DNA from: Pseudomonas sp. NC02
Lineage (GTDB): Bacteria > Pseudomonadota > Gammaproteobacteria > Pseudomonadales > Pseudomonadaceae
Length of the DNA: 64,000 nt
Reading direction: 5' to 3'
Assembly (NCBI RefSeq): GCF_002874965.1
Contig: NZ_CP025624.1
Coordinates: forward strand, 6,262,001-6,326,000
The notes under the pieces are model-generated. The model had not been told where the DNA came from, did no database searches, and saw nothing but the letters and a program-made list of their open reading frames with translations. The position numbers and the translations under genes are program-made. Positions 13,846-36,729 of this stretch are shown one piece after another. Numbering within the stretch: position 1 is the stretch's first letter; each line of letters starts with the position of its first letter.

Positions 13846-13922
<77 letters not shown>

Positions 13923-14047: not shown

Positions 14048-15133
14048 ATGGCAACACTCGTCAAAACTCCTTCCGGCACCTGGAAGGCCCTGATTCGCAA
14101 AACTGGCTGGCCAACCGTGGCTAAAACCTTCCGTACCAAGCGTGATGCGGAGGACTGGTCTCGACGTACCGAAGACGAAATGGTAAGAGGTGTGTACATC
14201 CAGCGCAGCGGCTCCGAACGCATGACGCTTGAGACTGCACTCAAGCGCTACCTGAGCGACATCACCCCCACCAAGAAGCCCAGCACCCAGCGCGGTGAAA
14301 TCACCAAAGCCAAGAAGCTAATCGAGCACCTGGGCAAATACTCTCTTGTCGCCCTCTCCGCTGAAATCATCGCCGGCTACCGCGACAAGCGACTGAACGA
14401 GCCCGGCCGCGATGGAAATATCAGCAACAACACTGTGCGTCTTGAGCTGGCTCTGTTGAGCCACCTGTACACCGTCGCTATTCAGGAATGGGGATTGGGA
14501 CTGACGTTCAATCCAGTGCTGAACATTCGCAAGCCAAGCCCGGGAGACGGTCGTGACCGACGACTATCGCCGGACGAAGAACGCCATTTGCTCGCGGCCG
14601 TGAATCGACACAGCAACCCGATGCTGGGTTGGATTGTGCGTATCGCCCTGGAAACGGGTATGCGCTCGTCTGAGATTTCATCCCTGCGGCGACCTCAGGT
14701 GGATTTGGCAAAGCGCGTCATACGCCTCTCAGACACAAAGAACGACGCTTCCCGAACCGTTCCCTTGAGCAAGCGAGCCACAGAAGCATTCCAAGCTGCG
14801 ATGAGTAACCCGGTGCGTCCAATCGACTGCAACCTGGTGTTTTTTGGTGAACCAGGAAAGGACGGGAAACGTAGGCCGTACACATTCACCAAAATCTGGG
14901 GACAGCTTAAGAAAAAGCTCGATCTACCCGACTTCAGGTTTCACGACCTCCGCCATGAAGCGGTGAGTCGGCTTGTCGAGGGAGGGCTATCCGACCAAGA
15001 AGTTTCAGCCATCAGCGGCCACAAGTCGATGCAGATGCTCAAGCGATACACCCACCTTCGGGCGGAGGATCTGGTAGGGCGGTTAGACAAGATAAACCGC
15101 GACGCAAAGACTCCGCAACTTACGGACAAATAA
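14048..15133 (+). CDS. int: Tyrosine site-specific integrase of the island
   Basis: The 361-residue protein has an N-terminal SAM-like DNA-binding half and a C-terminal phage-integrase catalytic domain. The active-site set is visible: Arg in ALETGMRSSE, the HDLRHEAVS box, a His in SGHKSMQML, and the Tyr nucleophile in KRYTHLR. It lies directly inside attL and reads into the island, as expected for an enzyme recombining at the tRNA 3' end. A second, truncated and nearly identical copy lies at 17459-18044. Confidence 0.95.
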   Translation: MATLVKTPSGTWKALIRKTGWPTVAKTFRTKRDAEDWSRRTEDEMVRGVYIQRSGSERMTLETALKRYLSDITPTKKPSTQRGEITKAKKLIEHLGKYSLVALSAEIIAGYRDKRLNEPGRDGNISNNTVRLELALLSHLYTVAIQEWGLGLTFNPVLNIRKPSPGDGRDRRLSPDEERHLLAAVNRHSNPMLGWIVRIALETGMRSSEISSLRRPQVDLAKRVIRLSDTKNDASRTVPLSKRATEAFQAAMSNPVRPIDCNLVFFGEPGKDGKRRPYTFTKIWGQLKKKLDLPDFRFHDLRHEAVSRLVEGGLSDQEVSAISGHKSMQMLKRYTHLRAEDLVGRLDKINRDAKTPQLTDK

Positions 15134-17458: not shown

Positions 17459-18044
17459 GCTGAACATTCGCAAGCCAAGCCCCGGAGAAGGCCGTGACCG
17501 ACGACTATCGCCGGACGAAGAACGCCATTTTCTCGCGGCCGTGAATCGACACAGCAACCCTATGCTGGGTTGGATTGTGCGTATCGCCCTGGAAACGGGT
17601 ATGCGCTCGTCTGAGATCTCATCCCTGCGACGCCCCCAGGTAGATCTGACAAAGCGCGTCATACGCCTCTCAGACACAAAGAACGACTCTTCCCGAACCG
17701 TTCCCTTGAGCAAGCGAGCCACAGAAGCATTCCAAGCTGCGATGAACAACCCGGTGCGTCCAATCGACTGCAACCTGGTGTTTTTTCGTGAGCCTGGAAA
17801 GGACGGGAAACGCAGGCCCTACACATTCACCAAAATCTGGGGGCAGCTAAAAAAGAAGCTCGATCTACCCGACTTCAGATTTCACGATCTGCGCCACGAA
17901 GCTGTGAGTCGCCTCGTTGAGGGCGGGCTATCTGACCAAGAGGTTTCAGCCATCAGCGGCCACAGGTCGATGCAGATGCTCAAGCGATACACCCACCTTC
18001 GGGCTGAAGAGCTGGTTGATAAGCTAGACAAAATCGTTCGATAA
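17459..18044 (+). pseudogene. 5'-truncated second copy of the integrase gene
   Basis: From 17459 the sequence matches the integrase gene from about 14517 to near its end with very few changes, and reads on in one frame with the catalytic Arg, HDLRHEAVS and Tyr. The N-terminal 156 residues are missing: the homology starts abruptly inside a codon series with no start codon there (a GTG at 17541 is possible). It retains its own terminator. It is probably the older integrase of the plasmid-like part, cut when the unit with the full integrase and DUF262 gene arrived, but the order of events is inference. Confidence 0.88.
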
Positions 18045-26373: not shown

Positions 26374-27402
26374 TTATTCAGCAAAATTTACTGTTACTCG
26401 TCCGACCCGCTGAGTTACAGTCGCTCCTATTTCTGCTACGTCGGGGTCAAATAATGCTAAATTAACGCCATCCCCTACCGAACTCCGATACATAACACCA
26501 TCAAACCCACAAACTTTCACATACTCGCATAGATATTGGCTGGGTACGTAATCGAACGCAGCAGATCTTGGCAAAACGGGCCGAGTAAGTTCTTCTCCTA
26601 GCTTCTCAAGAAACTCTACATCACTTCTAAGCATAGATATTTCGCTCTCATCAGAAAGCATAAAAGGGGAAACACTTCTTTTAGGATGTCTGAGATCAAT
26701 AACTTTTAATCCGTCAGGAATACGTACACTGGCAACGCACGCATCCTCTCCCGTATGAGGGCGAATTTCAGAAACAGCTGTTATAGGTGTGGACGCCAAG
26801 TATAGATATGGAATACCTGCTGGATTGGCTCTACCATGTGAGGCGAGGTGTTTTGGAGGCGATTTCATTTCTATAGGAGTGTATGTCGAAGCACCGGTTT
26901 GTATCCGCGCACGGAACCAGTTTGTAGCCACCTCCGCGGCAGGAAGCAACAAATAATCAAAAAGCCTTTTGAGGCGGGAAAGATTTATTTCAGTTTCAGG
27001 AAAATACCTGTTTTTATGTATGAGTTCCTGACGTAAATCATCCCATCTCTGTAGTGCGTTATCTGAAACGGCAGTCTCAGATGGTCTGTATCGTTGCCTT
27101 ACCAATTCACCATCATCGAGAACATCGCTAAGAAGCTCTTTAGCATGGGCTATATCCATTCTCTCATGACTGAACATTCCCCAGTCACTTTTCAGCAACT
27201 CGATAAGTCCAATTCCCTGGGAATCTCTGACATAGATCCCTGTCAACAACTCAAATAGCTCTCTAAGTTCTCGCGGGGATAACAGTGGTTGATCGGGGGA
27301 AAGACAATAACTACAAACCCCTATTTCGTGAGAAAACTGAACAAAAAAACTTCTTCGAAGATGTATATCACCAAAACAGCTTGGGCAGCAGTACAATTTC
27401 AT
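26374..27402 (-). CDS. RES-domain protein with zinc-finger/HEPN-RES-type N-terminus
   Basis: RES domains cleave NAD+ in known toxins. The 342-residue protein has Cys5, Cys6, Cys9 and Cys30, Cys33 (a likely zinc finger, CPSCFGD and CSYC) as in HEPN/RES N-terminal domains, and a helical middle. The RES domain (about residues 160-325) has Arg165/167 in WFRARIQ, RANPAGIPYLYLA, the conserved Glu in AVSEIRP, and GFDGVMYRSS...GVNLALFD. No small Xre-type antitoxin, the usual partner of RES toxins, is next to it. Instead its start overlaps the sce7725 stop (ATGA), making it the last gene of a three-gene operon. Confidence 0.8.
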   Translation of the reverse strand: MKLYCCPSCFGDIHLRRSFFVQFSHEIGVCSYCLSPDQPLLSPRELRELFELLTGIYVRDSQGIGLIELLKSDWGMFSHERMDIAHAKELLSDVLDDGELVRQRYRPSETAVSDNALQRWDDLRQELIHKNRYFPETEINLSRLKRLFDYLLLPAAEVATNWFRARIQTGASTYTPIEMKSPPKHLASHGRANPAGIPYLYLASTPITAVSEIRPHTGEDACVASVRIPDGLKVIDLRHPKRSVSPFMLSDESEISMLRSDVEFLEKLGEELTRPVLPRSAAFDYVPSQYLCEYVKVCGFDGVMYRSSVGDGVNLALFDPDVAEIGATVTQRVGRVTVNFAE

Positions 27403-28340
27403 TCCCGTCCATGAAAATAATCGGCCATCACTTCAATGTGATGCTGCATAGAGAGCTTTTTAACATACCCCAATCCGGGAAAGTGGCCGCGCTCATGCAA
27501 CTCAATAAACTCATCAACCGCGCGAGTTCGGAAAATTTTCGTGTCGGGTCTCAGGGCTTCATCAACTAACTTACGCAAAGCCTCAGCAAACTTACCTGCT
27601 GGGTCAGTCGGCGTTTCGAAGCGATCAGACTTAAAGTGATGGATATACATTCCATCATCCTGTTCATCGTCGATGAATGTTAAATGAATGGCAACTGCGT
27701 AAGCAGGCCCTCCACCTTCAGAGTACTCGTCTCCAACTATTAGAAAATCTCCAAAACCTTCAGCCCCATCATCTTCGAAGGTAACGTGCAAGTCCGAGAA
27801 AAATTCTACAGCGGGGTGAAGCCTATTCGCACGTTTCTCAAATCCATTCTTAACGACAATCTTTTCAAAATCGGTAAAATTTCTCTGATATAGACGTCCA
27901 TTGTAACCATCTAAAAAAACATGAGCAGAATCATCGTCCCGAGGTAGAAGATTTAACAGCCCTCGAGCATCGGTAAAACCAGCATGGATGAATAGTTTTT
28001 TGCGCTGACCTACAGACTCTAAGATATTTTCAATCTGATGAACATCAGTCTCATCAGTGAGCAATACTCCTGCATACACATTCGCAGCGTGCTCATAATT
28101 ACTATCCAGAAGCTCGATCAATCTAGACGGGTCGGCGGAAAGATCTCCATAGCGAGGATTTACTATAAGCGAAATATCACCGCCAGCATCGCTCACAGCA
28201 TCAATTGCCCGTATCAAACCGTTTACTGCTTCTTTGACTGGTTCGATAATTGGGACAAATCCCCGCTCAGACATAATATCCGCACACTCGCGAATAGTAA
28301 TTAGATCATACTGCTTACCGCGAAAATAAGGGTAGTACAT
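27399..28340 (-). CDS. sce7725 / T4 beta-protein-like family protein
   Basis: The 313-residue protein opens MYYPYFRGKQYDLITIRECA, the pattern of sce7725 family proteins and of the related beta-protein family named after a phage T4 gene product. The core looks like an alpha/beta barrel with regular strands (VPIIEPVK, SLIVNPRYG, VYAGVLLTD, KLFIHAG, AHVFLDGY). The biochemical function is not known to me. It follows the sce7726 gene after seven bases and overlaps the RES gene by four, so the three are probably made together. Confidence 0.75.
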   Translation of the reverse strand: MYYPYFRGKQYDLITIRECADIMSERGFVPIIEPVKEAVNGLIRAIDAVSDAGGDISLIVNPRYGDLSADPSRLIELLDSNYEHAANVYAGVLLTDETDVHQIENILESVGQRKKLFIHAGFTDARGLLNLLPRDDDSAHVFLDGYNGRLYQRNFTDFEKIVVKNGFEKRANRLHPAVEFFSDLHVTFEDDGAEGFGDFLIVGDEYSEGGGPAYAVAIHLTFIDDEQDDGMYIHHFKSDRFETPTDPAGKFAEALRKLVDEALRPDTKIFRTRAVDEFIELHERGHFPGLGYVKKLSMQHHIEVMADYFHGRE

Positions 28341-28347
28341 GCTCCAT

Positions 28348-29247
28348 TCATCCCCACTTCAATGCTTCCATTAGTGGAGTATCTATTGCATCCAATAGAT
28401 TCCCCTTAGTCCGTTCTGTTAGAGGAACGGTTAACGCAAAAAATCTTATTGAAGCTGGCAAGCTTCTGACCGACTCAGACAGCCCCGATAGATTCCTAGT
28501 ACTTTTTAAAACTCGTACCATTTCATCATGCACAATAGCAGAGGGGATTTTCACGAACTCTCTATCCAGAGCGCTATGCATTTGTGTGTTTGGTAAGCTA
28601 GGGACACGTACATCTAGATTCTTCAGGACCTCAATGGCCTCTCTTTGTGTAATGGCGTTGAATATAGAGCTTGAGATAGTACGACTAGGATCACAGAAGC
28701 TTTTACGAAATGTTGAGATCTGGTATCTATCGGTGAGCACAGAAACGCCTACAAAGTCAGGAACAATAGAAACAACTGCCTCTAGATGTCTTTCAGCACA
28801 CAGCACCGTAACACTCGCAAAAACCTCACTATACGACACGACCTGTGAGTAGAGCCTATCCAACTTATCCCGATCAGACTTGATTTCATATGCCGTGGAC
28901 GTACCATTCAACATAACTATATCTGCTTTATTCTTACCAACTCTAAACTCATCGACAAGCGACGCGGTCCTCAAAGAGTGCGAACCAAGCAATACTTTTT
29001 GAGCGACGGCAGTTTTATAGGCATACTCATTTCTAAAGCTCTTCCGCTTCAGTAAGTCGAAGAGCTCATCCAGTATCCGCCCTACGCTCCAAGTGTACTT
29101 ATCAACCTCAACTGCAAGCTCTTTCATCAATCGTGCAAAGATCGGAGACTGGCCCTTTTTGACCATCTCGTGAAAAACGGCAGCCGTGAAAATCCGTGCG
29201 ATAGCCGCTTGCTCTCGGACCTCTGTCCCCTTCACCGTTCTCAACAT
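28348..29247 (-). CDS. sce7726 family protein, PD-(D/E)XK nuclease-like
   Basis: The 299-residue protein has a PD-(D/E)XK-like set in its first half: Glu100, Asp109 in KADIVML, and Glu121-Ile-Lys123 in AYEIKSDRDKLDRL. This is the text that marks the sce7726 family, which is regularly found beside sce7725. The C-terminal half is helical and unassigned. It is the first gene of the operon with sce7725 and a RES protein. Nuclease activity is predicted from the motif only. Confidence 0.78.
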   Translation of the reverse strand: MLRTVKGTEVREQAAIARIFTAAVFHEMVKKGQSPIFARLMKELAVEVDKYTWSVGRILDELFDLLKRKSFRNEYAYKTAVAQKVLLGSHSLRTASLVDEFRVGKNKADIVMLNGTSTAYEIKSDRDKLDRLYSQVVSYSEVFASVTVLCAERHLEAVVSIVPDFVGVSVLTDRYQISTFRKSFCDPSRTISSSIFNAITQREAIEVLKNLDVRVPSLPNTQMHSALDREFVKIPSAIVHDEMVRVLKSTRNLSGLSESVRSLPASIRFFALTVPLTERTKGNLLDAIDTPLMEALKWG

Positions 29248-29634: not shown

Positions 29635-30258
29635 ATGAGCAGTTATCCGAAGCGCGTCAGGGACAACATTCTGCCACGGTCCGTCGGAGAGACTTTGCCC
29701 GAAGCTTTCGAGGAGTGGTCTTTCACAGAGGTCGTGAGGGATCATGAACAGCCGACCGACACATGTGAGCTGTGCGATCAGGAGTCGCTTCGATATCAGT
29801 TCGAAATTCGCAATACGATGACTAAACATACGCTATGGGTTGGATCGCAGTGCATCCTTAGGTTTGGCCTTTCGGTGTTCGAGGCAGGTCGTAGACTTTC
29901 ACCGACTGATGCCAAGAAAAAACTTGAGCGCTTAACGCAACAGATGCGATTGAATTCATGTGTTAGTGCTCTAGAGAAACTGGCGGTCGCGGAAAACAAC
30001 TCGATGCTGTCAAACGCGCTGAAATATTACCGAACCAACAAGTACCTTTCTCCAAAATTTGCTTTCGTCGTTCTCTGGCGCTTAAAAGCAAACAAAATTG
30101 ATCACAGTCCTTCTTTTTTCAAGATCAACCTTAAACGCAGCAAATATCAAGAAGACCTTAGGCATATGAAGCCAGGAAATGTAGAGATGATCTGGCCTGC
30201 ACTGTCGTCTAGCCAAAGGCAAATGGCGTTACTAATGGGGAATAAAGCACCAGCGTAA
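29635..30258 (+). CDS. Hypothetical protein with a possible treble-clef zinc motif
   Basis: The 207-residue protein has CELC (about residues 43-46) and, after a short beta hairpin, WVGSQCILRFG. The spacing fits a zinc ribbon or treble clef that lacks or displaces one ligand. The C-terminal half is basic and helical. GGAGG lies eight bases before the ATG. Similar small proteins occur on integrative elements. No function can be assigned; the neighbour downstream is equally unknown. Confidence 0.55.
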   Translation: MSSYPKRVRDNILPRSVGETLPEAFEEWSFTEVVRDHEQPTDTCELCDQESLRYQFEIRNTMTKHTLWVGSQCILRFGLSVFEAGRRLSPTDAKKKLERLTQQMRLNSCVSALEKLAVAENNSMLSNALKYYRTNKYLSPKFAFVVLWRLKANKIDHSPSFFKINLKRSKYQEDLRHMKPGNVEMIWPALSSSQRQMALLMGNKAPA

Positions 30259-30320
30259 AATACTCTAGAAACACAAATTAGAAAGTTACTTGTAAATTTT
30301 ACGACCATCAAGGAGTTAAA

Positions 30321-31460
30321 GTGAATAAAAACTATTACTGGGAAATTGAAAAGTCACCCTACCCATCACCATTCCTATCAGAAACAAAAACATTTGGCGA
30401 AATCAACCCGATATTTCTTGTAGATCAACTAAATGGTAAACGACCCGCCGTCTTCAATGAAAATTTTCTAGCATCTGGAGAAATAAATCTCCCTATCTAC
30501 CCGAGTGCACTACTCGACTCCAACATAATGGATGCAATTGACAACAGAGTACAAAAAAACACAAAGCTTGACGGGCTAGAAAATTTTCTTCACTTCGCAA
30601 CACTAAACAAATGGGATTTCAGCCCACTTTTTTATTACATGGAGCATTACTCAAAATCCTCAAATGAAGACTTCATAAAAAACGCGAAAAGACGGACCGA
30701 ATCGTATCTAAAAGTTTTCTCTATGAACCAAGAGCACTTTCTATATACGCAAGAAATAATTCCAGACCCAGCCGCGATTGAATTCTACTTAGAGCCTACC
30801 CCCCATAAAACCTTAACTGAATTAGCAGAAGGAAGAACGATAGCTTTTACCGAGAAATTTGACAAACGCTTCTTAAACAATGCAATTGAGTCAATACAAA
30901 TAGCGTTAATCAAGATGATACTCATAGAAAAAATTGAGTTCAAAGGTGCTACCCCCCTACAAAAACATGGGGAGTTGGTCAGTTTCCTAAAAGATGGACT
31001 CGGAATAATGCTCGGCCGCGAAGCACATATGGCACTACACTACTTCTCAGGTATTGCTGGTCGCTTATTGGGAGTTCAAGCAAGCACGCCGTATACTACA
31101 GCACTTAAAAATATTCGATCGACTGCTTGGGACATGTTCTTGCTAAGAGTCCCAGAGGGATTGTATACCGAAGCGCCCGACGAATTATGCATAAGCTATA
31201 TAGCCACTCAAGAAAAGCAACTTCACACCCTTGCAAAACTCTTCACCCTGGAAAGAATATTTAGCACTGAGAAAAACGGATTCACTCCTATAATCAGTTA
31301 CAATATGAAAATGCTTCCACCTGAGACTTCGTCCGGTGCAGCCACAAACGATGAACAGTTATTTTTTAGCCATATTGAGCGCAGCACGCAAATGAGATTA
31401 GAGCCACCTACAGGACTTCTCAACGCCCTGGAAAACGAACTCAGAAAATATTGCAGCTAA
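30321..31460 (+). CDS. Unknown 379-residue protein with a faint PIN-like acidic pattern
   Basis: No family is recognised. The protein is Asn/Lys-rich and its gene is clearly AT-richer than the chromosome, a sign of foreign origin. LLDSNIMDAID (Asp66, Asp71), a helical middle, TAWDMFLLRV (Asp271) and CISYIATQEKQLHTLAKLF (about residues 290-308) follow the order hhDxN - helices - aWD - hxTxDxxL seen in PIN-like nucleases, although the usual last Asp is Glu298. AAGGAG precedes the GTG or ATG start near 30321. It sits between defence modules, so an immune role is plausible but not shown. Confidence 0.5.
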   Translation: MNKNYYWEIEKSPYPSPFLSETKTFGEINPIFLVDQLNGKRPAVFNENFLASGEINLPIYPSALLDSNIMDAIDNRVQKNTKLDGLENFLHFATLNKWDFSPLFYYMEHYSKSSNEDFIKNAKRRTESYLKVFSMNQEHFLYTQEIIPDPAAIEFYLEPTPHKTLTELAEGRTIAFTEKFDKRFLNNAIESIQIALIKMILIEKIEFKGATPLQKHGELVSFLKDGLGIMLGREAHMALHYFSGIAGRLLGVQASTPYTTALKNIRSTAWDMFLLRVPEGLYTEAPDELCISYIATQEKQLHTLAKLFTLERIFSTEKNGFTPIISYNMKMLPPETSSGAATNDEQLFFSHIERSTQMRLEPPTGLLNALENELRKYCS

Positions 31461-31656: not shown

Positions 31657-32544
31657 ATGGCAGAACTTGAAGTTCCCCCGAAGGTATTTATCTCATATTC
31701 TTGGGAGAGCGACGCCCACAAGCTATGGGTAAGAGTTCTCGCTGAGAGGTTAACAAAAAACGGAGTGAACGTCCGACTAGACCAGTGGCATATCACGCCC
31801 GGACAAAGTCTCACTCAGTTCATGGAAGTTGAAGCTCAAGATTGTGACTTCGCCCTGATCATTTGCACGAAGGACTACAGCAGAAAGTCATTGGCTCGTG
31901 CCGGTGGAGTTGGCTACGAACAACAAATAATAACTGGACGCATTGCTGCCGGGTTGGACCGGGAGCGCTTCATTCCTATTATTCGAGATGGCGAATTTAC
32001 TCCTGGCGCGGACTGCTCCATACCCGCGCAGTTCTTGGGAGTCTATGCACTTGATATGCGGGACGAGGGAAAGCTGGATCAGCGAATTGAGGATTTGCTA
32101 AGAGCAATATTTAGGGAACCCGCTCTGACACAACCTTCAATAGGACCGAGACCCGCCTTTGGTACAGTCCCTGAACCTGAAATCGCTACGAGGCCTAACC
32201 AGAGATTAGCCGTATTAGACATTGACGGATGGCATCTTCTTAGTGGGGTAGCAAGCAACGAGCGCTGGCCACAGTCCTTCCGAATTCCCGAAGAATCAGA
32301 GCGATATAGCCTTAATGTGAGCGATAGCGTTAAACTTCAGTTCGAGTTTTCCCTAGATGGTAAAAATGGAGACACCGAACTTTTTGGTGAAAGGATGTGG
32401 GTCGGAGTGATAGGTAGGTCTGGTCCCTACCTCGTGGGCGAGTTACAAAACACCCCAGCATGTTCAGATGAACAAGGTAACCTAGAAGCTGGCAATACCG
32501 TAGTATTTTTACCAGAACACGTTATAGATATATGGGAAGACTAA
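31657..32544 (+). CDS. SEFIR/TIR-domain protein with a C-terminal DUF2314-like domain
   Basis: Residues 8-150 form a TIR-superfamily domain of the SEFIR type: KVFISYSWESDAHKLWV, then NVRLDQWHITPGQ, a Glu-containing helix (QFMEVEAQ) and FALIICTKDYSRKS. A proline-rich linker (about 155-185) leads to a domain (about 195-295) with GERMWVGVIG and GNTVVFLPEHVIDIWED, resembling DUF2314. TIR enzymes in bacteria cleave NAD+ or make cyclic-ADP-ribose signals. The gene is convergent with the Thoeris operon, 120 bases away, and may belong to it or act alone. Confidence 0.75.
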   Translation: MAELEVPPKVFISYSWESDAHKLWVRVLAERLTKNGVNVRLDQWHITPGQSLTQFMEVEAQDCDFALIICTKDYSRKSLARAGGVGYEQQIITGRIAAGLDRERFIPIIRDGEFTPGADCSIPAQFLGVYALDMRDEGKLDQRIEDLLRAIFREPALTQPSIGPRPAFGTVPEPEIATRPNQRLAVLDIDGWHLLSGVASNERWPQSFRIPEESERYSLNVSDSVKLQFEFSLDGKNGDTELFGERMWVGVIGRSGPYLVGELQNTPACSDEQGNLEAGNTVVFLPEHVIDIWED

Positions 32545-32631
32545 CTTCCAGCGACGGCCCATACCGAAGAGACAATTGGTATCCCTTTTATCCGTCATAT
32601 CAAAGTATACTCCATACCAATAAACCTGACA

Positions 32632-32660
32632 GACGGGCCGCGGTGATTTGGCGGCCCGTC
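32632..32660. terminator. Hairpin between the convergent SEFIR gene and thsB
   Basis: GACGGGCCGC and GCGGCCCGTC form a perfect ten-base stem with a nine-base loop, five bases beyond the thsB stop. It probably ends transcripts arriving from both sides, though T tracts are absent. Confidence 0.65.
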
Positions 32661-32665
32661 ATGAT

Positions 32666-33109
32666 TCAGACCTTGCCGGCGGCCTTGGCAGCATCTTCGA
32701 CCCACTTACCAAGGTTCTCCCGTCCACTATCCTTATTCCATAGATAGTGTTTGTATCCGGTGACGGTAAGGCCACAGCACGAGCTAGTCTGTTGCCTCAG
32801 GTTGCTGATCTGACTGATGTCGATGGTCAACAAGCCATTACCGCGCGCGATACTTTGGTCAATCTCGTACTTAACCCATTTGCTCTTGTTGGTATTCGCA
32901 CCTACCAGTACGACTGTCACCGTGGTGCCAACGAGCTGGCCGTCGATCCAGGATTTTATCGCGGCCTCGCCCTTACGCTGCACCTCTTCGAACTCTGCTT
33001 TGTCGATAAAGCCGTACTTCGCGGCAGCTTGAATTACATTACTATTTCGCACATTCATGGCGCGATCAACGTCATCGTACTTGAAGCTGAAGAAAACTTT
33101 TCTAGCCAT
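32666..33109 (-). CDS. thsB: Thoeris protein ThsB (TIR-like, DUF1863)
   Basis: The 147-residue protein matches the DUF1863 TIR-like domain: RKVFFSFKYDDVDRAMNVRN at the start, VTVVLVGANTNKSKW in the middle and Glu82 in WVKYEIDQSI as the likely catalytic residue. In Thoeris, ThsB senses infection and makes a cyclic ADP-ribose isomer from NAD+ that activates ThsA. It is the last gene of the operon, 11 bases after thsA. Confidence 0.9.
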   Translation of the reverse strand: MARKVFFSFKYDDVDRAMNVRNSNVIQAAAKYGFIDKAEFEEVQRKGEAAIKSWIDGQLVGTTVTVVLVGANTNKSKWVKYEIDQSIARGNGLLTIDISQISNLRQQTSSCCGLTVTGYKHYLWNKDSGRENLGKWVEDAAKAAGKV

Positions 33110-33120
33110 GGGTTGAGTCC

Positions 33121-34551
33121 TTAAATGAGAGGGATGAGGGTCAAGATAACTTCTTGGGCTCGCTTCAGCGTCGTGGCCTCGGCGCCCAACTCATGCAGCA
33201 ACGGTGTAATCTTTTTTCCATGCGTGTGCTGTGCTTCGTCGTAGCTTTGGATGACGTCGTTCCACAGATCTCTGGAGATGGAACCTGTAATTCCCACTGG
33301 GATCACAAAGACGCCGTTGGTCACAGCAATATCGAACTCTTCCCGCATACCCGTTGAAAGCACCACGTCGCCGCCCTCAAGTTTATTGCCAAACAGGAAG
33401 ATGGCGATGCCCGTGTGAGCAAGCATGTTGCGGCGATATTCCGACCAGACCTCTTTCAAAGGACGTTGACCGACCTGGTTTTGCGGGAACGGCCTTAAGA
33501 TCAATTGATCGCTGTCTAGGCGTCCACCATTCATGATGGTCTGCTCCAGCACACCGGTGATGACGGCACTACCTATCCCCAGCCCAAACCCAGAAATCAC
33601 CCGATATTGAGCTTTGCTGATTGCCTTACTCAGTTCGTAAACGAAATTTTCCGACTCCTTTTCCGTCCATGGACTGTAGTCATGCGCGGCGCCGGAAATG
33701 AAGATGGTTTTCTTTTTGTGGCGATGCTCGACAGCCTTCAAGATCTCGGTGATATCAGAGAACTGATCGACGTAAATCACTTTGATCCCTACGCGCAACA
33801 ATTCGCCTTTAAAAAGTTCCTCCTTGCGCTGGCGATACTCGAAGTCCGCTAACTCTTCATCAACGGCTTGAGCGGCTTTCCTCAATAGGCAGTAGTGCTG
33901 TCGCTGATCCTTGGCAAACTGAATCCTTACTCGACTGAGGATGTACTCAAGGTTTGGGGCGGTGAAGCTAAAGCCAAGAAAAAGAAAAGTTTTGGCAATG
34001 AGGTCCCCGCTGAGCGCGGTGATGAACGGCTGCATTTTGACGTGATAACGCTCGTAATCGTCTCGAATCAACACTGCGTCGGACGCATGTTCAACATCGC
34101 CGTGCATTTTGTAGACTATCGCGTCGCGCTTGGGCTTTGTCGTTGCCAATTGCTTGGTTGTGTACTTGGTATCCGCGATTTTCTCGTTGTTTTCTAACGC
34201 GGTCTCGATCAGACGATCATAGTTAGTCGTCCAGTAGGTCTGGATCGGAAGCCTTGCAAGGATGACGTGGTTTTCAGTAGGGGCCACCTTCGCAGAAAAC
34301 TCCGTCACCAAGAGTTGGTTGAGCTTCGCTCGATTGGTCGAATTTACGTTTGCATGGTATTGAGCCAACGTAACTAAATCCCATTCCTTCTCGACGTCCA
34401 GATCCAGGTCGTCCGCGATTGGCTTAAGCAGCGTCTTCCAATCAACGAACCCAGCCGCGCGCGAAAAGCCCGCCCCTGCAAAAATAGCAAGATTTCCTTC
34501 TGCCAACTCTTTTGACAGGTCGTCAATGAGTCGCAACTGTTCCCTCGTCAT
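33121..34551 (-). CDS. thsA: Thoeris effector ThsA (SIR2 and SLOG domains)
   Basis: ThsA destroys NAD+ once activated by the ThsB signal. The N-terminal SIR2 domain shows AIFAGAGFSRAAGFVDW, the catalytic Asn110 in YWTTNYDRLIE and His150 in YKMHGDVEH. The C-terminal SLOG/STALD domain (KTIFISGAAHDYSPW, ISGFGLGIGSAVI, MREEFDIA) binds the signal. It resembles the Bacillus cereus ThsA I remember along its whole length, and that alignment supports the start at 34551. The frame is open to 34656, with further ATGs at 34605 and 34656 that overlap the upstream TIR gene; none has a strong ribosome site, so coupling to the TIR gene is likely. Confidence 0.92.
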   Translation of the reverse strand: MTREQLRLIDDLSKELAEGNLAIFAGAGFSRAAGFVDWKTLLKPIADDLDLDVEKEWDLVTLAQYHANVNSTNRAKLNQLLVTEFSAKVAPTENHVILARLPIQTYWTTNYDRLIETALENNEKIADTKYTTKQLATTKPKRDAIVYKMHGDVEHASDAVLIRDDYERYHVKMQPFITALSGDLIAKTFLFLGFSFTAPNLEYILSRVRIQFAKDQRQHYCLLRKAAQAVDEELADFEYRQRKEELFKGELLRVGIKVIYVDQFSDITEILKAVEHRHKKKTIFISGAAHDYSPWTEKESENFVYELSKAISKAQYRVISGFGLGIGSAVITGVLEQTIMNGGRLDSDQLILRPFPQNQVGQRPLKEVWSEYRRNMLAHTGIAIFLFGNKLEGGDVVLSTGMREEFDIAVTNGVFVIPVGITGSISRDLWNDVIQSYDEAQHTHGKKITPLLHELGAEATTLKRAQEVILTLIPLI

Positions 34552-34582
34552 GTAGTAATCGCTGTGTTGGAGGTTGAGAAAC

Positions 34583-35077
34583 TCAGAGGGTGCGTACCCA
34601 GCGGCCATTTCCTTGAGGGTCGTACAGCGCCAAGCCACCGGACGGCGGGGTATCAATGCGGTTGTAGAGCTTTAAATATTCGTTGCCGTGATAGCGGCCA
34701 TGGGTGTCGGTAGTAGGGATGATCGCTATGCGGCCCAACTGCTTTTTGCCGTCCGCGTATCCAATCTCCCATGGGCACCAACGTGATGACATGGAATGTT
34801 CGGTTGCTAGAAACAAGAACCATTCTGCGCTGATGATTGCATTTTTGATTCGCGCGGCAGTCTCTGCGTCAGGCTGCTCGGGCATCGCCTGGTCTTGCCA
34901 GTCAATGTAGATGTCCCACCCCTGTTGCTTCAGCATTTCCTGAAGGCCCAGCGCAAGCGCTGCATCCTTGTGACTGTGACTAAGGAAAGCGGTAGGTTGA
35001 CCTGGACGTTTGGGGGTGTGGCCACTTTGCGAGCGATTAAAATACCTGTTGCTCAGGTCAGATTGGAGAATCGTCAT
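34583..35077 (-). CDS. Second TIR-domain protein of the Thoeris operon
   Basis: The 164-residue product is a TIR domain: QPTAFLSHSHKDAALALGLQ, GWDIYIDWQD, EWFLFLATEHSM and Glu104 in WCPWEIGYADGK as the likely catalytic residue. It differs from the ThsB at the other end of the operon. Thoeris loci often carry several TIR sensors that widen the range of phages detected. The ATG at 35077 has GGAAG nine bases upstream; the earlier ATG at 35134 lacks one. It is the first gene of the operon. Confidence 0.82.
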   Translation of the reverse strand: MTILQSDLSNRYFNRSQSGHTPKRPGQPTAFLSHSHKDAALALGLQEMLKQQGWDIYIDWQDQAMPEQPDAETAARIKNAIISAEWFLFLATEHSMSSRWCPWEIGYADGKKQLGRIAIIPTTDTHGRYHGNEYLKLYNRIDTPPSGGLALYDPQGNGRWVRTL

Positions 35078-35533
35078 TGCGTAAGGCTTCCATGGCTTTG
35101 AAAGCAAAGTGCCATCTTTTAGGGGGGGCCTCAACAGTTTTTTTCAGCACACATGAAGCGTTATTGATTAATCCATTCAGCTCTGATGCCGAGCATCACT
35201 GTTAGTCAATCTGATTGGATTGGGCGGTAGTCGACACACAACGCACAGGCGACGCCGACCGGCCAATTAATGCAGGTGCAGATTGTCCGCTTTCGCGGTC
35301 AACTCCACTTTTAGAAAGCGTCTACATCACTCCAAAGCAACGCGTTCTGAAGTAGGTCTTTTACAAGCTTGAGTTCCAACGAGAAATGCAAAATCAGTAC
35401 AACCACGGTACAGTACTCAGCTTGAGCAACCTTCTCAAAATTACGCTCAACACCAGTAACGACGGGGCCTCCAGCTATGCCAACCTACGTTCACCTACGA
35501 ACGATTTCTCTAGGCATATCAGCTCGCCCAGCA
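35078..35533. other. Gene-free right end of the island
   Basis: About 450 bases between the Thoeris operon start and attR, without a credible frame. It should hold the Thoeris promoter. Integrase arm sites may lie here, but I could not find a repeat of the left-end GGTACA pair. Confidence 0.35.
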
Positions 35534-35574
35534 ACTCATAATCCCTTGGTCGTAGGTTCGAGTCCTACTGGGCC
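35534..35574. repeat. Right attachment site (attR) of the island
   Basis: An exact 41-base copy of the tRNA 3' part (13877-13917). It is not a tRNA gene, since the 5' half is missing. The next bases differ by one C from the tRNA copy (GGCCACCA against GGCCCACCA). Confidence 0.92.
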
Positions 35575-36327: not shown

Positions 36328-36729
36328 TCAAACGGAAAGTTCGCGCAAAGCCGCCGTCGCCAGGAACCCAGAGCGCGAGGCATAGCGATGGTCTTTTTGC
36401 ACTCGCTCATCGATACGATTCAAAAGTTGCTCAGGCAGTGAGGCGTTGAACCTGACTGACTTGCCCAGGTAAGGAGTAAGATCAAAGTCGATCACCGCCC
36501 ACACGCCACCCGCAAAGTCCGGATTCTCCAAATGGACGTCGACCTCTCTAGCCTGAGGAAGCCGCTCCTCATCAGCAACCAATCCCTCGAGGTGCAGCGC
36601 TAAAGCTTCGCGGACATTATCCAGAGCTTCGGAAAAGGTTGTGCCCGCAGAAAAGCAACCTGGCACGTCCGGGACGGTCACGCTGTAATCTGAATCAGCG
36701 TCTTTGTGTATCACCACTGGAAATTTCAT
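36328..36729 (-). CDS. hicB: HicB antitoxin
   Basis: The 133-residue protein has the partly degraded RNase H-like HicB fold (SVTVPDVPGCFSAGTTFSEALDNVREAL, quoted here in part: PDVPGCFSAGTTFSEAL) and a C-terminal ribbon-helix-helix-like DNA-binding part (VRFNASLPEQLLNRIDERV). It neutralises HicA and represses the operon. AAAGGAGGAAAA gives a very strong ribosome site. It follows hicA after 55 bases. Confidence 0.92.
   Translation of the reverse strand: MKFPVVIHKDADSDYSVTVPDVPGCFSAGTTFSEALDNVREALALHLEGLVADEERLPQAREVDVHLENPDFAGGVWAVIDFDLTPYLGKSVRFNASLPEQLLNRIDERVQKDHRYASRSGFLATAALRELSV

Follow-up and report, generated by a model that had tools for sequence, protein, structure and literature searches.

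The sce7726, sce7725 and RES genes of Pseudomonas sp. NC02 belong to a conserved three-gene unit, which, when all lines of analysis are considered, is rather likely to be an abortive-infection system resembling the Gop-beta-cII system of satellite phage P4, in which a RES protein, a predicted NAD+ consumer, stands in for the killer Gop. More tentatively, sce7726-sce7725-RES may be the first RES-armed, NAD+-destroying immune system, and Gop-beta-cII may be one branch of a wide family of cII-type nucleases and beta-type barrels with interchangeable killers. Membership of sce7726 in the cII family, the RES motifs and the fixed gene order are read directly from sequences; confident structure models give sce7726 a nuclease fold and sce7725 a barrel fold.

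No functional study of the triplet was found in one open-access literature collection, which was mostly judged from listings, preprints being outside the coverage. RES, sce7725 and sce7726 are listed without a function in the available part of a report on a P. aeruginosa mobilisable element (PMC9394441), as are sce7726 and sce7725 in the available description of a Leptospira region (PMC12457778). According to the accessible sections of a 2024 paper (PMC11535050), known NAD-targeting immunity relies exclusively on TIR and SIR2 NADases, and no RES toxin-antitoxin system has so far been implicated in bacterial immunity. A third class of NAD+-targeting immunity has a specific and widely conserved candidate in this operon, and the sce7726 and sce7725 families gain a family link, a likely role and a tie to the gop, beta and cII genes of P4.

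Organization of the operon and its host island

The window, i.e., the whole 64,000-nucleotide stretch of DNA analysed, carries the operon on the minus strand, from position 29247 to position 26374. The sce7726 gene (28348-29247, minus strand) encodes a 299-residue protein of the cII family with a predicted PD-(D/E)XK nuclease fold. The sce7725 gene (27399-28340, minus strand) encodes a beta-like protein of 313 residues, which is predicted to form a TIM barrel and is the proposed restrainer of RES. The RES gene (26374-27402, minus strand) encodes the proposed NAD+-consuming effector, 342 residues long and composed of a Cys-rich N-terminal domain followed by the RES domain. We take the names sce7726 and sce7725 to be Sorangium locus numbers. 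The genes are spaced 7 and -4 bases apart, and the same values had been given in the first-pass annotation, made from the DNA letters and open reading frames. A scan for promoters and terminators gave signals no better than those of shuffled sequences.

The triplet resides on a 21.7-kb, low-GC island inserted at a tRNA-Met gene (window positions 13846-35574) and bounded by 41-base exact repeats. The left repeat, an attL candidate (13877-13917, plus strand), lies inside the tRNA-Met gene (13846-13922), and the right repeat, an attR candidate (35534-35574, plus strand), closes the island. The tyrosine integrase gene of the island maps to 14048-15133 on the plus strand (PF00589, 109.5 bits), and a partial second integrase copy is found at 17541-18044. 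In a comparison of empty sites, 8 of 37 relatives carry about 45 bases from past the right repeat a single base away from where the left flank ends; the comparison is weak, as the window genome has a similar stretch after its left repeat too.

Other island cargo includes a GmrSD_N gene, TrbL and MobC-like genes and, outside the triplet, a bSEFIR-like gene and a Thoeris system, both recognized by PADLOC models and together spanning 31657-35134. The bSEFIR-like TIR gene (31657-32544), a third candidate on the island with a possible NAD+ link, lies beside Thoeris (32666-35134), in which a single ThsA gene (33121-34656) is located between two different ThsB genes (32666-33109 and 34583-35134), each scoring best on a different PADLOC ThsB model. 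The first-pass annotation had placed the operon beside Thoeris on a defence island, and the detection of ThsA and two ThsB genes on the same island bears this out. Two genes, divergent from the triplet and encoding proteins of 207 and 379 residues without a confident family match, occupy 29635-31460. A HicB-like antitoxin gene (36328-36729) is found immediately outside the right repeat.

Elsewhere, triplets are carried by plasmids, by an ICE-linked Salmonella region and by contigs from viral collections. In three E. coli strains examined, of the 18 that carry it, the triplet is located in variable islands, and Kiwa-like, incomplete type I restriction, AbiE, BREX, RT and TIR/caspase/cyclase genes occur among the three within 12 kb. 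In 22 triplet genomes, 149 PADLOC families (E<=1e-15) are matched by 131 proteins encoded near the triplet, as against 37 families for 121 control proteins from the same genomes. Families, not proteins, are counted here, and a large share of the control list comes from Zorya-type models. Since one protein can match several families, the excess is suggestive and does not amount to a formal test. The 22 genomes were paired out of 30, six being dropped for short first contigs and two not being included. Proximity to defence genes, for which the first-pass annotation had proposed an enrichment check, is seen in the window, in the three E. coli strains and, by this crude count, in the 22 genomes.

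Conservation of the triplet

Searches through sce7725 yielded 115 distinct loci, counted by protein, in genomes and in plasmid, phage-record and viral-contig sequences. All three genes are intact in 91 loci, and their order and strand are identical in every one. The remaining loci comprise seven with sce7726 and sce7725 that have room for RES but lack it, three in which RES is broken, five in which sce7725 is broken, and nine that are either cut by an end or devoid of sce7726. Among the best 80 of 335 confirmed sce7725 relatives, taken from one-per-species genomes and chosen for similarity, a RES sequence is present downstream in 80/80 loci and sce7726 upstream in 79/80, counts that include a few copies that are broken or run into the end of a contig. 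With script-chosen starts, the gap between sce7726 and sce7725 is 2-8 bases in 74/81 loci, and that between sce7725 and RES ranges from -8 to 11 bases in 77/80.

An unselected search covered 398 genomes of the window's phylum, 396 and 149 genomes around two other centres, and 99 genomes of the window's genus. Ten genomes match once the window genome and both centres are set aside; sce7726 adjoins sce7725 in all 10 (one of these neighbours is cut by the locus end), and 8 have RES. The unit is sparse, occurring in 3 of 397 other genomes in the phylum sample and in 5 of 98 in the genus sample. Rare adjacency elsewhere, which the first-pass annotation had named as fatal to its reading, is excluded by the fixed-order loci together with these unselected neighbours. 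Its view of the three genes as a single machine fits the 91 fixed triplets and fits less well the seven loci without RES and a Glutamicibacter plasmid described below.

Distances among the three proteins correlate in the 91 intact loci (r of 0.90, 0.89 and 0.87), with none of 500 permutations reaching values as high. In a tree of 46 sce7725 rows chosen from 109, the wide clade holding the window copy features RES in 30/30 sampled rows. A second clade includes seven rows with RES, seven without and one unscored, and a RES-less Enterococcus row falls outside; RES presence requires at least three changes on this tree. According to record titles, triplets occur in Pseudomonadota, Actinomycetota, Acidobacteriota, Chlorobiota, Nitrospinota, Nitrospirota and Planctomycetota. 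The triplet is present in 18 of 5426 complete E. coli genomes and is therefore testable in standard strains.

The decay of individual genes follows a pattern. RES is broken beside an intact sce7725 in three loci, and none of the five loci with a broken sce7725 retains an intact RES; the counts are small, and the pattern fits a toxin. In E. coli UTME-9, RES is annotated as frameshifted and both partners are intact. All 95 loci with an intact RES also have an intact sce7725, a count that is biased because the loci were found through sce7725. On the Glutamicibacter plasmid, RES is intact and sce7725 is reduced to a tail of about 44 residues beside IS6100, which argues against an essential restrainer, unless the RES gene is silent. 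One locus (L086) retains sce7725 and RES, with no sce7726 found. On an Enterococcus plasmid (L005), sce7725 lies upstream of a GNAT gene, no sce7726 or RES was detected by the profiles used, and the branch is very long; a viral scan queried with the Enterococcus sce7725 found no relative.

Features of the RES protein

The window RES protein matches PF08808 over residues 172-327 at 66.3 bits (cut-off 23.2), and the domain was found in all 67 RES relatives scanned. The Cys-rich N-terminal domain is HEPN_RES_NTD1-like in relatives: PF18870 (HEPN_RES_NTD1) is matched at E<=1 by 51 of the 67 (best 6.2e-8), the window copy having no match. Residues C5, C6, C9, C30 and C33 are conserved in 91/91 intact triplets, as are R164, R166, R191, Y201 and E212; S307 and N314 are conserved in 90/91, with one gap. 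NatT, a RES NAD+/NADP+ phosphorylase, is described in the available text of PMC11535050 as having active-site residues R23, R82, Y93, S184 and N193 and a partner-interface residue, E104. In a MAFFT alignment, R166, R191, Y201 and E212 of the window protein fall in the same columns as residues conserved in three Xre-paired RES proteins; solved RES toxins are matched by one of the three. The alignment, which did not contain NatT itself, placed the N-terminal motifs and not the C-terminal S/N motif, and the correspondence of S307/N314 to the RES toxin active-site motif was drawn by eye. The above-cut-off domain, the motifs and the cysteines agree with the first-pass description of an NADase-like protein with RES signatures and a Cys-rich N-terminus.

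None of the three operon genes encodes an Xre/MbcA/ParS antitoxin, in keeping with an earlier remark that the RES domain has no Xre partner. Moreover, 16 of 30 triplet genomes gave no match at E<=0.001 to PF09722, the model of these antitoxins, so the triplet does not require an Xre partner in those genomes. We also considered Gop as a hidden RES protein; comparison of the RES profile with Gop (hhalign) revealed no similarity (E 0.7) and thus no sign of such a relationship.

Large RES proteins are found in other contexts. A second one with a Cys-rich N-terminus is encoded in the same genome (L177, 826-3450, near genome position 2785249) beside an AAA_15 ATPase gene, and the two may represent a further RES-armed system. 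On plasmids, the window RES has matches in 290 records (E<=1e-5); in the six regions read (L134-L139), a large RES lacks an annotated sce7725 neighbour, and one copy lies beside a Shedu-domain gene and another near a TIR gene.

sce7726 belongs to the family of P4 cII

The window sce7726 protein scores 162 bits on NF033832 (cut-off 70), and P4 cII scores 151 bits on the same sce7726-family model. The two match in hhalign (Prob 98.8), RefSeq labels P4 cII as a sce7726 family protein, and the window protein matches the PADLOC 'cll' model PDLC02989 (E 1.9e-22), which presumably stands for cII of the P4 gop-beta-cII set. By these sequence comparisons, the sce7726 family is the family of P4 cII.

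In a confident structure model, sce7726 is predicted to adopt a PD-(D/E)XK nuclease fold, the site of which is formed by D109, E121, K123, Q135 and Y139. The D-E-K-Q residues are invariant, and the nuclease site is kept in 91/91 intact triplets. Both the fold and the D-E-x-K site that define PD-(D/E)XK proteins are found, as judged from the predicted structure, its matches and residue conservation. The first-pass annotation had called the protein nuclease-like on the basis of a D-x11-E-x-K set, which corresponds to D109, E121 and K123.

sce7725 is a predicted barrel resembling beta

The window sce7725 protein matches NF033831 at 323 bits (cut-off 60). A confident structure model adopts a TIM barrel, and its top viral structural match is a protein of the P4-beta family (PF14350), in agreement with the beta-protein-like barrel proposed earlier. 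No match of the window protein to PF14350 was obtained at E<=1 in a Pfam scan. Comparison with a deep beta profile of 129 rows gave E 1.9e-4 in hhalign with a Prob of only 47.5%, and the negative controls, RES and sce7726 profiles, gave E values of about 0.5-0.6. An earlier beta profile of five sequences matched sce7725 weakly, over 58 N-terminal columns (Prob 10.6). On this evidence, sce7725 and beta probably share a barrel fold, and sce7725 resembles beta in fold and, weakly, in profile. Sequence searches of solved structures with the three family profiles yielded no convincing relative, with best E values of 1.7 (A4) and 0.46 (A5); the matches of the A6 profile to CagY repeats (E 4.9e-6) and catalase (E 0.36) were judged unlikely.

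Links to satellite phage P4

The available part of a study of P4 (PMC9122126) reports that gop-beta-cII guards E. coli against lambda and P1, and that Gop is toxic without beta. As in P4, beta and sce7726-family genes are paired tail to tail on five plasmids (one beta gene is partial). In a search of 200 genomes, four sce7726 matches exceed the cut-off, and the two that are not part of triplets pair tail to tail with beta; two matches below the cut-off (L132 and L133) were excluded from the family. Two Gordonia phages also carry beta and sce7726-family genes paired in this way. Near tail-to-tail beta-sce7726 pairs without RES (L120-L124, L129, L131, L140 and L141), an RT gene is present at L121 and a Fic gene at L131.

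The sce7726-sce7725 module is itself associated with P4-like elements. One RES-less module sits in a P4-like satellite, in which alpha is 84% identical and cI, vis and sid are matched. A sce7725-RES pair in Xenorhabdus lies next to a stretch of P4-like alpha (54% over 261 residues). The link to Gop-beta-cII lends independent experimental backing both to an anti-phage role for such a set and to the barrel as restrainer. The first-pass interpretation had recognized the three protein types, their adjacency and the independence from Xre, all of which stand; the connection to Gop-beta-cII had been missed.

Proposed mechanism and alternative explanations

In the mechanism that we favour, sce7725 would keep RES inactive, as beta does Gop, perhaps by way of the Cys-rich N-terminal domain of RES; this restraining role is proposed because Gop is toxic in P4 when beta is missing, the logic being transferred. 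sce7726 would sense or process phage-derived DNA and, once engaged, would make sce7725 release RES. The freed RES would empty the cell of NAD+, and the infected cell would shut down.

The roles could be distributed differently. The sce7726 nuclease, held by sce7725, could be the main antiphage effector and cut phage DNA, RES being an optional second effector or fail-safe. Since seven loci lack RES, the nuclease may itself be an effector, and the nuclease site conserved in every intact triplet, the RES-less modules found in two genomes from the window's genus and on viral-collection contigs (the P4-like satellite among them), and the repeated changes of RES presence on the tree all point the same way. 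We nevertheless consider this unlikely: the presence of RES in every sampled row of the window copy's wide clade is unlike that of an optional part, and the known toxin of P4 is Gop, not cII. It is more doubtful still that the unit is an addiction module in which RES would be the toxin and a sce7725/sce7726 complex the antitoxin, and which would stabilise mobile elements and have no direct antiphage role. Carriage by a tRNA island, by plasmids and by an ICE-linked region would suit such a module, as would the presence of the genes in a P. aeruginosa integrative mobilisable element (PMC9394441, available part) and the statement, in the accessible text of PMC11535050, that most RES domains belong to toxin-antitoxin systems. 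However, two conserved partners, one of them nuclease-like in fold and with its active site conserved, exceed the needs of an antitoxin, the corresponding set of P4 is antiphage (PMC9122126, available part), and the triplet has defence genes among its neighbours both in the window and in the three E. coli strains.

A different activity of RES, which could use NAD+ to ADP-ribosylate a target or to make a signal without depleting NAD+, is very improbable. The structural similarity of NatT to diphtheria toxin, mentioned in the available sections of PMC11535050, and the extra N-terminal domain of this RES class are compatible with it, but the active-site motifs of RES toxins are conserved (R164/R166, R191, Y201, E212, S307 and N314, the last two by eye). 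We retain, as the preferred reading, an abortive-infection system in which RES would be the NAD+-consuming effector.

Comparison with known systems

Gop-beta-cII is the closest relative of the triplet. Both consist of three genes, include a protein of the cII/sce7726 family, are carried by mobile elements and feature a probable barrel protein (beta or sce7725) proposed to restrain the toxin. In the triplet, however, RES takes the place of Gop, to which it has no similarity, and sce7725 lies outside PF14350, the family of P4 beta. The order also differs: in P4, gop-beta faces cII, whereas sce7726-sce7725-RES are all oriented in one direction.

The RES domain and its active-site motifs are common to the RES proteins of RES-Xre modules (ParT, MbcT and NatT). 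In contrast to these, the operon RES is larger, carries a Cys-rich N-terminal domain and has no Xre/MbcA/ParS gene in its operon; NF049844 gives it just 12.8 against a cut-off of 110. The core fold and the D-E-K site of sce7726 are shared with MmcB-like PD-(D/E)XK proteins, to which we take structure 3dnx to belong, and with restriction nucleases (PaqCI), from which sce7726 differs in its additional helical N- and C-terminal parts and in its genetic coupling to sce7725. Thoeris, the neighbour of the triplet on the island, also targets NAD+, which likens it to the action proposed here. It is nonetheless a separate system, featuring its own sensor and effector and having no genes in common with the triplet.
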